Shown: one piece after another, positions 18,765 to 27,119 of the stretch
Numbering within the stretch: the first letter of the stretch is position 1
Layout of the letters: each line of letters starts with the position of its first letter
From: Mucilaginibacter segetis
GTDB taxonomy: Bacteria; Bacteroidota; Bacteroidia; Sphingobacteriales; Sphingobacteriaceae
Assembly: GCF_016522075.1 (NCBI RefSeq)
Contig: NZ_JAEHFW010000004.1
Location: forward strand, 1-64,000
DNA length: 64,000 nt
Direction of reading: 5' to 3'
The notes under the pieces: model-generated
What the model saw: only the letters and a program-made list of their open reading frames with translations
What the model was told of the DNA's origin: nothing
Database searches by the model: none
Translations under genes and position numbers: made by a program

Positions 18765-19415
18765 TTACGCGTTTTTAACTAAAATCGATTCCATAACGTT
18801 AGCGGCATCTTCGCACATATCTGTAGCGGTTTCCAGCGCGGCAAGTATCTCTTTGTATTTAATAAGGCGTATAGCGTCAGTTTCGTACAGGAACAGATCG
18901 GCCACGGCACGGTCAAATACATAGTCGGCCTGGTTCTCAACACTGTTTATCCTGATGCAGGAATCGGCGATATTGCGTACGTTCCTTAAGTCTTTCAATT
19001 CCCTTACTGCTTTTTCAAGGTCGCCACATGCTTGTAATATCAGCTCAGATAGTTTGCGGATATGCTCATTAAAATCATCTATCTTATACAAACTCATCCT
19101 GTTTGCTGCGCCGTGTATGTAATCGGCTACGTCATCAATAGCCGTGGCTAATGCGTGTATATCTTCACGATCAAAAGGGGTAATGAAGTTTTTGCCCAGT
19201 TCGAGGTATATCTGGTGGGTAATTTCATCGCCTTTATTCTCAAGCTTATCTATCTGCCTGAAAAGCTCATCCTGAGTAGCGGAATTACCCGAATTAACGG
19301 CTTCTACCAGGATTGTTGCCATGCTTACCACATTATTGGCGGCTTGTTCAAAAAGCGGGAAAAAGGTTTTCTTATCTTTTGGTACGAAGTACTGGAAAAT
19401 ACTGTTAAGTGACAT
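18765..19415 (-). CDS. DUF47/PhoU-like phosphate transport regulator
   Basis: This 216-residue helical protein matches the DUF47 family (PhoU-like). It is rich in acidic and basic heptads (for example ELFRQIDKLENKGDEITHQIY and FDREDIHALATAIDDVADYIHG), including acidic metal-binding clusters typical of PhoU relatives. Members are encoded next to pit genes and are thought to control the transporter. It is the first gene of the two-gene unit, and a putative phosphate-responsive promoter lies directly upstream. Confidence 0.92.
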   Translation of the reverse strand: MSLNSIFQYFVPKDKKTFFPLFEQAANNVVSMATILVEAVNSGNSATQDELFRQIDKLENKGDEITHQIYLELGKNFITPFDREDIHALATAIDDVADYIHGAANRMSLYKIDDFNEHIRKLSELILQACGDLEKAVRELKDLRNVRNIADSCIRINSVENQADYVFDRAVADLFLYETDAIRLIKYKEILAALETATDMCEDAANVMESILVKNA

Positions 19416-19432: not shown

Positions 19433-19440
19433 TAAAGGTA
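19433..19440 (-). promoter_or_regulatory. -7 element of DUF47-pit
   Basis: On the minus strand TACCTTTA matches seven of eight positions of TAnnTTTG, 18 bases before the DUF47 start and eight bases downstream of the Pho-box-like repeats. That spacing fits an activator bound in place of a -33 box. Confidence 0.45.
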
Positions 19441-19448
19441 CGTTAGCA

Positions 19449-19466
19449 ATGTTAAGTTAATGTTAA
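19449..19466 (-). promoter_or_regulatory. Pho-box-like direct repeats upstream of DUF47-pit
   Basis: On the minus strand TTAACAT-TAAC-TTAACAT is a perfect pair of 7-base direct repeats with a 4-base spacer (11-bp period). The layout is that of the PhoB box, and TTAACA matches the B. subtilis PhoP half-site TT(A/T)ACA. It overlaps the stop codon of the histidine kinase gene. Confidence 0.55.
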
Positions 19467-20527: not shown

Positions 20528-20570
20528 GGGTATAAAGATAGTATATAGCTGCCAATTAAAACCGGCATTA

Positions 20571-20588
20571 ATGCTAAATGAATGTTAA
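20571..20588 (-). promoter_or_regulatory. Second Pho-box-like repeat upstream of the kinase gene
   Basis: On the minus strand TTAACAT-TCAT-TTAGCAT repeats the same 7-4-7 layout with one mismatch, 43 bases before the kinase ATG. A -7-like TATCTTTA lies between (20533-20540). Confidence 0.45.
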
Positions 20589-24614: not shown

Positions 24615-26420
24615 ATGAAGAGGAAAAGTATTGGTTTAATAATAGGATTGATGGGCCTTGCGCTGTTGGGCGTTGTGGCTATGCAATTATATTTTTTACG
24701 CCAGTCGTACCAAATGCAGTCAGAGCTTTTTAAAAGTTCGGTCAACGAGGCACTTAACAGCGTGGTTGCTAAAGTTGCCAAACAGGATGCCATTAATTTT
24801 CTGAATTCAAAAACAAAGAACGCCCAAAAGCTTGCGGAAGAAACTGCCTCACAAAAGGAAACGGAAATAAGTATAAATGGCAGTAATGGCGAAGGTGCTC
24901 CTGATAATCAAAACCAAACAAAGCGTGAACGTAAGCTGAAAATGCTGAGGGATAGTTTGCGGCACATGATCATGCAAAGGCAGGTGGAAGACCAGCTGGC
25001 TACCTTATCACAGCAGGGTACACTGCGTATTCGTATTGAGGAATTTACGGATGAGTTTGGAGACGTACATGGCCGGCTTATACCCGAGATAGTGAAATCA
25101 GGCCCGTTGCCGGTAAAGAAGAAATTATATAAATATGATACGCTCCGGTCTACTTATATCGATCCGCAGTTTGGCAAGCAGGTAATATCCGCCGTCAGAA
25201 TTAATCCGCTATGGCTACAGGAGCAGGAGCGGCTGCAAAAAGAACGGCAGTTTAAACAGGTGAAGAAAATGCTGGCTGCCGATTCACTGGAAAATGCGTC
25301 GCACACATCGCCGAAAATTAATGTTATTGAGAATTTGGCAGAGGAGTACCGCCAGTCGGGTGAACCACTGGACAAACGGCTTAATACGTTGTGGATAGAT
25401 TCGGTATTAAGGTTTGAACTGCATAACAGGGGGATATTTATACCATATAGTTATGAGGTAAGTACCGCCAACAGCGATTCACTTATATTTTCGAGTGCCC
25501 AGGATGTTAAGGGACTGAGGCCTAAGTTTGTTAATGATAAAACTTATCAAAAGGCAATATTCGGCAACCAGGTGATCAATGATCCGGGAAGGATAAAAAT
25601 ATATTTTCCGAAGCAGAACTCATTTATATTGGGCAACATGACCGCCAGTATGGCCACCACCGGCGGGCTGATATTTGTGCTTATACTGTGCTTTGGATAC
25701 ACTATTTTCTCGATACTTAAACAAAAGAAGATATCGGAGATGAAAATGGATTTCATCAATAACATGACGCATGAATTTAAAACACCGGTATCAACCATCA
25801 TGATAGCCAGCGAGGCCTTGAAAGACGAGGAGATAACGGAAGATAAAGCACGTGTGTTACGTTTGGCAAACGTTATTTACGAAGAGAATGTAAGGCTGGG
25901 CAGCCACATAGAGCGCGTACTGAATATTGCCCGTATTGAGAAAGACGATTTTAAACTGGATAAGAAACCGGTAGATGTTAACGAGATGATCACTATTGTG
26001 CTCGATAGCATGCAGCTTAAACTTCAAAAATGCGGCGCGGTTACCAGGTTAAAAATGGATGCAAAAAATCCGGTTATTATTGGCGATGAGTTACATTTTA
26101 GTAACGTGCTGTATAATCTTATTGATAATGCCATAAAATACAGCACTGATAATCCGGAAATTACTATTACAACGCAAAATAACAGCGGATATGTATTAAT
26201 AAAGGTTGCCGATAAGGGTATTGGCATGAACCGAGACCAGCAGGCGAAGATATTTGAGCAATTTTACCGTATACCCACCGGTAACCTGCACGATGTTAAG
26301 GGCTTTGGTTTAGGGTTAAGCTATGTTAACACCATAGTTAAAAGGCTTGAAGGTATGATAAGTGTACGATCTGAAAAGGAAAAAGGATCGGAGTTTGAAC
26401 TGAAATTTCCATTGGCATAA
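24615..26420 (+). CDS. RprX-like sensor histidine kinase
   Basis: This 601-residue kinase has an N-terminal membrane helix (about 8-28), a large periplasmic region (29-345) and a second helix (348-368). The H-box is THEFKTP with His386, and the ATPase domain has LYNLIDNAIKYS (N-box), DKGIGM (G1) and KGFGLGLSYV (G2). The periplasmic sensor has no recognised fold. Together with the OmpR-type regulator six bases downstream it resembles the RprX/RprY pair of Bacteroides. The inducing signal cannot be told from sequence. Confidence 0.9.
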   Translation: MKRKSIGLIIGLMGLALLGVVAMQLYFLRQSYQMQSELFKSSVNEALNSVVAKVAKQDAINFLNSKTKNAQKLAEETASQKETEISINGSNGEGAPDNQNQTKRERKLKMLRDSLRHMIMQRQVEDQLATLSQQGTLRIRIEEFTDEFGDVHGRLIPEIVKSGPLPVKKKLYKYDTLRSTYIDPQFGKQVISAVRINPLWLQEQERLQKERQFKQVKKMLAADSLENASHTSPKINVIENLAEEYRQSGEPLDKRLNTLWIDSVLRFELHNRGIFIPYSYEVSTANSDSLIFSSAQDVKGLRPKFVNDKTYQKAIFGNQVINDPGRIKIYFPKQNSFILGNMTASMATTGGLIFVLILCFGYTIFSILKQKKISEMKMDFINNMTHEFKTPVSTIMIASEALKDEEITEDKARVLRLANVIYEENVRLGSHIERVLNIARIEKDDFKLDKKPVDVNEMITIVLDSMQLKLQKCGAVTRLKMDAKNPVIIGDELHFSNVLYNLIDNAIKYSTDNPEITITTQNNSGYVLIKVADKGIGMNRDQQAKIFEQFYRIPTGNLHDVKGFGLGLSYVNTIVKRLEGMISVRSEKEKGSEFELKFPLA

Positions 26421-26426
26421 TTCAAT

Positions 26427-27119
26427 ATGAAAAAAATATTACTGGTTGAGGACGATCCTAATCTGGGCTTGCTGTTGCAGGATTACCTACAGCTGAAAGG
26501 TAAGTTTGATGTAGTGTTATGCAAAGACGGGGACGAAGGTTTACGGGCCTTTACCAAACAGACTTATGACCTGCTGATACTGGATGTGATGATGCCTAAA
26601 AAGGATGGTTTTACCCTTGGTAAGGAAATCAGAAAAATGAATGCGCAGGTACCCATAATTTTTGCCACAGCCAAGGGCATGATAGAGGATAAAACGCAGG
26701 CCTTTAATTTAGGCGGAGACGATTATATCACCAAACCATTTAGAATAGAGGAACTTTTACTGCGTATTAACGCTTTGCTTAAACGTGCAGATAACGCGGA
26801 GAAAAAAGCGGATGAAATGCCAACGCAGTTTAAGTTAGGAGGGTATGATTTTGATTATACCTCGCAGGTAATTACGCGGGGGGGCAACAGCCAGAAACTA
26901 TCTACCAAAGAGGCCGAATTGCTGCGCTTATTATGTTTACGAAAAAACGAAGTGCTTACACGCGAAGAAGCTTTATTAAATATTTGGCACGACGATAATT
27001 ATTTTAACGGCCGCAGTATGGATGTTTTTTTAAGTAAGATACGTAAGTATTTAAAGGATGATCCGGCTGTGGAGATCATTAATGTGCACGGTAAGGGGTA
27101 TAAAATGCTGATCAATTAA
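26427..27119 (+). CDS. OmpR-family response regulator (RprY-like)
   Basis: This is 230 residues. The receiver domain (1-120) has the acidic pair EDD at 8-10, the phosphoacceptor in LILDVMMP (Asp53), Thr/Ala in FATAKG and lysine in YITKPF. The DNA-binding domain (about 130-230) is a winged helix ending VHGKGYKM, as in OmpR. It pairs with the kinase encoded just upstream. Tandem repeats before that operon are a plausible binding site. Its stop overlaps the convergent VOC gene by three bases. Confidence 0.94.
   Translation: MKKILLVEDDPNLGLLLQDYLQLKGKFDVVLCKDGDEGLRAFTKQTYDLLILDVMMPKKDGFTLGKEIRKMNAQVPIIFATAKGMIEDKTQAFNLGGDDYITKPFRIEELLLRINALLKRADNAEKKADEMPTQFKLGGYDFDYTSQVITRGGNSQKLSTKEAELLRLLCLRKNEVLTREEALLNIWHDDNYFNGRSMDVFLSKIRKYLKDDPAVEIINVHGKGYKMLIN

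Follow-up and report, generated by a model that had tools for sequence, protein, structure and literature searches.

Does the short direct repeat that precedes the DUF47 and pit genes of Mucilaginibacter segetis act as a Pho box, and if it does, which regulator would read it and with what effect? The window, the whole stretch of 64,000 nucleotides analysed here, contains TTAACAT-TAAC-TTAACAT, a perfect 7-4-7 repeat that an earlier note had reported and taken as a sign of phosphate-starvation control. The sequence is exactly as that note described it; what needs amending is the strand, which is minus (19466-19449). We propose, on sequence grounds, that this box is very probably the docking site of the phosphate-starvation regulator PhoB. 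The fuller reading, a Pho box with a PhoB/PhoP-type regulator and a PhoR-like kinase that together activate DUF47-pit on starvation, is one we hold with high confidence.

Table 1. The DUF47-pit promoter region and neighbouring genes, in positions of the window
Feature	Position	Strand	Remarks
Probable Pho box TTAACAT-TAAC-TTAACAT, 7-4-7 direct repeat, DUF47-pit promoter	19449..19466	-	perfect; conserved in relatives
8-nt spacer between box and -7 element	19448-19441	-	
-7 element TACCTTTA, consensus TAnnTTTG, 8 nt past box	19433..19440	-	
DUF47 / PhoU_div protein, 216 aa	18765..19415	-	Pfam PF01865 E 2.3e-27
Pit-type inorganic phosphate transporter, 335 aa	17736..18743	-	Pfam PF01384 E 8.5e-94
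PhoR-like sensor histidine kinase, 354 aa	19463..20527	-	HisKA + HATPase_c
Second 7-4-7 box TTAACATTCATTTAGCAT, upstream of kinase gene	20571..20588	-	one mismatch
-7-like TATCTTTA of kinase gene	20533..20540	-	30 nt (8 + 2x11, i.e. 8+22) past second box

Read along the minus strand, the locus runs CCCGTATTAAAAAG TTAACAT TAAC TTAACAT TGCTAACG TACCTTTA CCCCATAAAATTACGCA ATG, so that the -7-like element begins where the earlier note had placed it relative to the box, and 33 nt separate the box from the DUF47 start codon at 19415. That note had mentioned neither the overlap of the box with the stop codon of the kinase gene (19465-19463) nor the second box upstream of the kinase gene itself, which is poorly kept (at most two mismatches in 13/76 named relatives).

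Loose matches to the bare repeat occur at close to chance frequency in both window and genome and are therefore, by themselves, no evidence. At up to three mismatches, 28 sites fall in the window where shuffled sequence gives 21.4 +/- 5.0. The genome-wide count was dropped as a line of evidence because, at two or fewer mismatches, the repeat occurs 145 times and its reversed pattern 119 times. Relaxing the letters (W) of a composite pattern left it too noisy in the same genome (34 versus 24). No second perfect 7-4-7 copy exists in the assembly; several of the 16 genome sites with no or one mismatch are intragenic (e.g. L003, L005, L011), and others precede genes that have no evident phosphate role. 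It is conservation, not loose matching, that carries the case for the box, and that conservation is clearly far beyond chance.

We compared three sets of DUF47 loci: 30 from the family, 76 usable loci of 80 from named relatives, and 29 from the class, the family and named sets sharing kinship and not being independent. The closest named relatives of the window's kinase are Mucilaginibacter. Each of the 30 family loci returned, the window's own among them, bears the box before DUF47 (22 perfect, six with one mismatch and two with two). Within 300 nt upstream of DUF47, the named loci have 57 perfect boxes, 15 with one mismatch, two with two and two with three, which puts 72/76 at one mismatch or fewer. 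In the class survey a DUF47 match was found in 41/99 genomes, and the 29 loci returned with our own excluded (genes anchored by tblastn, two loci from the window's own family) divide into 8 perfect boxes and 9, 5, 4, 2 and 1 with one to five mismatches, respectively. The earlier note had named absence of the repeat from orthologous promoters as the outcome that would count against it; at two mismatches or fewer, the box is present in 30/30, 74/76 and 22/29 loci of the three sets, and in 20/27 class loci outside the family. In one class locus that lacks it (L135), DUF47 lies on the contig and strand of pstC, ~2.5 kb downstream of that gene, perhaps as part of the pstC operon.

Control regions behave quite differently. 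In the named loci we took the sequence upstream of other ORFs (200 aa or longer), leaving aside 149 regions near DUF47. Of the 252 regions so obtained, four have one mismatch, 16 two and 38 three, or cumulatively 4/252, 20/252 and 58/252; two of the four with at most one mismatch belong to the phoR-like kinase itself. Mononucleotide shuffles reached at most one mismatch in 0/1520. Paired half-sites in the class set stand 4 nt apart in 21/29 loci, every other gap from 0 to 12 being found in only 0-5. The same gap occurs in 74/76 named loci, where gaps of 12 (36/76), 1 (28/76) and 7 (23/76) are also seen, partly, as we read it, because the box holds overlapping near-repeats. Orientation is equally constrained: at one mismatch or fewer, forward boxes outnumber reverse ones by 17/29 to 1/29 in the class set and by 72/76 to 0/76 in the named set.

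The distance from box to core promoter element is fixed as well. In 75/76 named DUF47 loci the best -7 match starts 8 nt (64 loci) or 9 nt (11 loci) past the box, and all 37 of the 37 offsets measured to an exact TAnnTTTG are 8 or 9 nt. Exact elements in the class set (10 loci) lie at 8, 18-20, 30 and once 36 nt, nine of the ten deviating by at most 1 nt from 8, 19 or 30; those at pst (4 loci) lie at 19 and 41 nt. None was found within 50 nt of the phoB sites (30 loci), whose best inexact -7 matches stand 30 nt (13 loci) or 19 nt (6 loci) from the box. Spacing thus follows steps of 8 + 11k, a pattern and not a proof, given that exact -7 elements are few outside the named DUF47 set and that some loci are close relatives.

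A search for the 7-4-7 repeat upstream of phosphate genes, which the earlier note had suggested, finds the box before phoB, ppk1, pst and phosphoesterase genes as well as DUF47, and not before PhoX. At phoB (n=30) the best site has one mismatch in 1 locus, two in 18 and three in 11, that is, at most two in 19/30 and at most three in 30/30; three of the 30 sites, 19-21 nt from the start codon, may be chance matches. At ppk1, anchored in 29/30 loci (L335 not; L338 with 95 nt upstream only), a box with at most two mismatches precedes the gene in 19/29, often as TTAATATTAA-TTAACAA with a sequence like CAGTTTTG 8-9 nt further on; the box of the M. segetis genome's own ppk1 is TTAATATTAAATTAACAT. 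For pst, 29/30 class loci were counted (L093, which has a box, was left out), and 13 of them, from seven families with five from f12, have, no more than 200 nt from pstS or pstC, a box with at most two mismatches, compared with 2.8% of random windows from the same loci; no such box lies within that distance in the other 16/29, several of which have less than 200 nt upstream of pstS. Taken with the 7-4-7 form and the fixed place before the -7 element, this recurrence bears out the earlier description of the site as having PhoB-box architecture.

PhoX, tried as an independent Pho gene, gave a negative result: of the 30 class loci (L295-L324), 25 offered a usable ORF, and a box with at most two mismatches stands before 1/25. 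Several of these loci are weak matches that may not be true PhoX. Either PhoX in Bacteroidia is under other control, or many of these matches are other esterase-like proteins.

Which protein would bind the box? The best PhoB-like regulator of the genome, at C1:1610205-1610894, scores 228 bits to TIGR02154, the next 189; this is below the equivalog cut-off of 296.2 bits and so outside PhoB membership by that model, and its score against the Bacteroides PhoB model NF053854 is 218 of 270 bits. The E. coli PhoB chain 1gxp is one of 55 OmpR-type sequences that its DNA-binding domain matches (E 2.4e-15). Orthologues of this regulator occur in 59/61 family genomes and those of the window's kinase in 61/61. 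The kinase itself scores 239 bits to the phoR model TIGR02966, short of the cut-off of 334 and thus of PhoR membership, and matches it in the kinase core only; we call it PhoR-like because of its linkage to phoB. In 10/59 genomes (G004, G007, G010, G024, G029, G032, G033, G043, G046, G058) the two orthologues lie at most 60 nt apart on the same strand, and the simplest view of the pair is that they are PhoR and PhoB; the kinases of these ten are 46-51% identical to the window's, so that their orthology rests on each being the single match at E 1e-80. Among the 30 family loci, no partner regulator is apparent beside the kinase when the nearest upstream ORF is read by eye, and phoR and phoB have most simply become separated in the Mucilaginibacter lineage, to judge by these gene orders. 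Elsewhere in the window (24615-27119) a separate histidine kinase gene is followed by one for an OmpR-family regulator, which at 144 bits to TIGR02154 is not, by sequence score, the PhoB candidate. A PhoB-type regulator in the genome whose orthologue adjoins that of the kinase in ten relatives supports the phosphate-starvation control put forward in the earlier note, with binding and Pi response as its predicted components.

From these observations we infer binding, phosphorelay, the sign of control and the Pi response in M. segetis as follows. Two protomers of the PhoB/PhoP-type regulator encoded at C1:1610205-1610894 would bind the two 11-bp units (TTAACAT + 4 nt) head-to-tail, once activated in phosphate starvation by the PhoR-like kinase encoded directly upstream of the box. 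PhoB would then sit 8 nt upstream of TAnnTTTG, at the place of the -33 element, and recruit RNA polymerase with the Bacteroidota primary sigma factor, turning DUF47-pit on. In Flavobacterium psychrophilum the sigma-A box TAnnTTTG is reported at -12 to -5 (PMC9723704). With the same placement here, the Pho box would span roughly -38 to -21 and cover the place of the upstream core element. E. coli PhoB boxes likewise lie over the place of that element.

The sign of control is likely activation, by analogy; this is the best reading given the geometry of the box and PhoB-dependent expression in Bacteroides fragilis, where deletion of phoB is reported to lower the permease BF3715 52-fold and pstC 428-fold and to abolish induction of the ppk gene BF2645 (PMC3547664). 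In that report BF3715 and pstCAB show no >4-fold change on Pi limitation in the wild type, being PhoB-dependent only, and a second ppk, BF3714, is PhoB-independent (PMC3547664). PstC over the family cut-off was not found in the M. segetis genome and was found in 8/21 relatives; Pit is therefore likely the main Pi importer of this species.

The full promoter pattern is far more discriminating than the bare repeat. Among 41 congeners, TTAACAT-N4-TTAACAT-N8-TAnnTTTG with at most two mismatches has 116 sites and its reversed control 15; the forward pattern occurs in 38/41 of these genomes. We read 53 loci, hand-picked from the 116 mostly to avoid further DUF47 copies and representing 49 distinct sites: an ORF of at least 60 aa starts within 43 nt on the same strand at 45/49 (a raw count), and 3/49 are intragenic on one strand or the other, in ORFs of 100 aa or more. 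Proteins tested downstream include a DUF47 paralogue, a calcineurin-like phosphoesterase, TonB-dependent receptors, an ECF sigma factor, an OprB porin, DUF2490, a bacterial PH domain, a TPR protein and a DNA/RNA endonuclease, with a Phosphoesterase-family protein 249 nt away from another site.

In Mucilaginibacter the composite promoter often stands before ECF-sigma-like genes (L391, L395, L401, L402, L409, L417, L355, L356, L364, L365, L369), identified by Pfam at L391 alone and by appearance at the other loci, which suggests a second regulatory tier from PhoB to ECF sigma factors. A protein with bacterial PH and SHOCT domains, tested at L403, recurs beside the composite promoter (L403, L404, L426, L375, L377). 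Arrays of four 11-bp units gave 7 matches (6 arrays, two of the matches overlapping) in 6/61 family genomes and 0 in the reversed control; one, L385, resembles a simple tandem repeat. The M. segetis genome has such an array at C2:370000-383000 (L031), where four 11-bp-phased repeats TTAACATAATAATAACATTGAATTAACTTGAACATAACAT run into TATCTTTG, and the ORF that follows (122 aa, Lys/Ala-rich) matches no Pfam family. Two GT4 glycosyltransferase genes are divergent from it; the best NCBIfam match of one, far short of the cut-off, is a glycolipid synthase. A second DUF47 gene nearby has no box in its own upstream region. The array possibly reflects phosphate-controlled membrane-lipid remodelling. Another four-copy phased array, TTTACATAACGTTAATATAAATTGAACATAATCTTTACAT at C1:1220958-1220997 (L032), lies ~170 nt upstream of an ORF resembling an outer-membrane beta-barrel, and no clear -7 element is seen by eye at the usual spacing.

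Three other explanations deserve weighing. An AT-rich chance repeat, or coding constraint at the 3' end of the kinase gene, would fit the chance-level loose matches described above and the overlap of the box with the kinase coding end or stop in 64/74 named loci. Yet the box is kept in the 10/74 without overlap and in loci of other families with a different upstream gene, and neither the empty shuffles nor the excess of composite sites over their control would be expected; we give this explanation practically no weight. A reading in which another OmpR-family regulator, ArcA-like or RprY-like for example, binds the box and phosphate is incidental draws on the genome's eight matches spanning the whole PhoB model. 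The reverse complement of the box also resembles what we take to be the ArcA repeat. Furthermore, the PhoP motif of Riemerella anatipestifer obtained by DAP-seq was matched by its authors to E. coli ArcA (PMC9603813). That motif, however, was selected by the PhoP of a PhoPR system upregulated in phosphate starvation (PMC9603813), the targets collected here are phosphate-coherent (phoB, pst, ppk1, DUF47-pit, phosphoesterases), and the PhoB-like regulator's own promoter has the repeat at three mismatches or fewer in every locus, compared with 58/252 null regions. Control by a different regulator is accordingly very improbable in our judgement.

Repression of DUF47-pit by PhoB on starvation, through the same Pho box, is a somewhat stronger contender that we nevertheless consider unlikely. 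It has a precedent in Sinorhizobium meliloti, whose orfA-pit is reported to be repressed on Pi starvation with a box immediately ahead of the putative start of translation (PMC3131613), a placement like that of the window's box near its start codon, and in the PhoB-dependent repression of the Na+-dependent phosphate transporter BF4351 of B. fragilis (PMC3547664). Against it, the same box-N8-TAnnTTTG arrangement stands before phosphoesterase and TonB-receptor genes, where repression on starvation makes little sense; Pit is likely the main Pi importer of this species, PstC over cut-off being absent; and the phosphate/sulphate permease of B. fragilis falls in the phoB deletion under Pi limitation (PMC3547664). 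We therefore retain activation by PhoB as the preferred reading of this promoter.

On this reading, the box is a familiar type of switch written in a sequence that Bacteroidota use in place of the textbook one. It predicts PhoB dependence for Pit and polyphosphate kinase in Bacteroidia. With the box and its spacing defined, the Pho regulon would become readable from their genomes, and a design for phosphate-responsive promoters becomes available to the phylum, whose members in soil, plant and gut are organisms for which phosphate control matters. A broader proposal seems to us evenly poised between right and wrong: a Bacteroidia-wide ancestral Pho-box code of tandem 11-bp TTAACAT-N4 units, with the best pair 8 + 11k nt (8, 19, 30, 41) upstream of TAnnTTTG, a modular, helix-phased grammar in which PhoB arrays grow toward the polymerase, or decay, by single helical turns. 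Such a code would place Pit (the main importer in Pst-less species), ppk1, phoB, outer-membrane receptors and, via box-bearing ECF sigma factors, a second regulatory tier under phosphate control.

The published work that we found on Bacteroidota describes either a regulon without a box or a motif without a phosphate-box reading. The B. fragilis Pho regulon likewise includes PhoB-dependent pst, a ppk, phosphatases and the phosphate/sulphate permease BF3715, which we set beside Pit by its description, and PhoB binds a 512-bp pstC promoter fragment in EMSA; in the accessible text of that paper we found no box sequence, consensus, direct repeat or binding site (PMC3547664). For Flavobacterium johnsoniae, PhoBR, a Ppk-like gene and PitA are among the genes named in the PHO regulon, and the accessible text mentions neither a promoter nor a Pho box (PMC8115612). 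The PhoP motif of R. anatipestifer, from the same phylum as Mucilaginibacter, has TTTAACA as its most conserved letters; EMSA places PhoP upstream of its own operon, 50/764 candidate genes changed in the phoP deletion, and the main text, as accessible, makes no mention of a Pho box, direct repeats, pst or polyphosphate (PMC9603813). The box sequence is thus not wholly new, as this motif records; its 7-4-7 architecture is a known kind of element, its half-site has already been seen in one relative, and our results suggest that the motif reported as ArcA-like is a Pho box. In the open-access literature, which leaves aside subscription journals and supplements, we found no description of a Bacteroidota Pho box as a 7-4-7 repeat or with a -7 distance rule.

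By definition a PHO box is a pair of 11-nt direct repeats (7 + 4) with head-to-tail binding, and its consensus varies between species (PMC4415409). The box described here is of this broad type: its 7-nt half-sites repeat directly across a gap of 4 nt, which is strongly favoured in the class set. B. subtilis PhoP boxes consist of TT(A/T)ACA half-sites in multiple phased repeats, a consensus that we take the half-site TTAACA to fit, and they belong to another phylum and work with another sigma factor. The E. coli PhoB box is alike in its 7-4-7 form of 11-bp units and in standing before pst and phoB-type genes. It differs in sequence, as the earlier note had said, TTAACAT sharing 4/7 positions with CTGTCAT (T2, C5, A6, T7) and so falling outside the E. 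coli sequence type; and unlike the E. coli box, that of Mucilaginibacter stands before the Bacteroidota -7 element TAnnTTTG.
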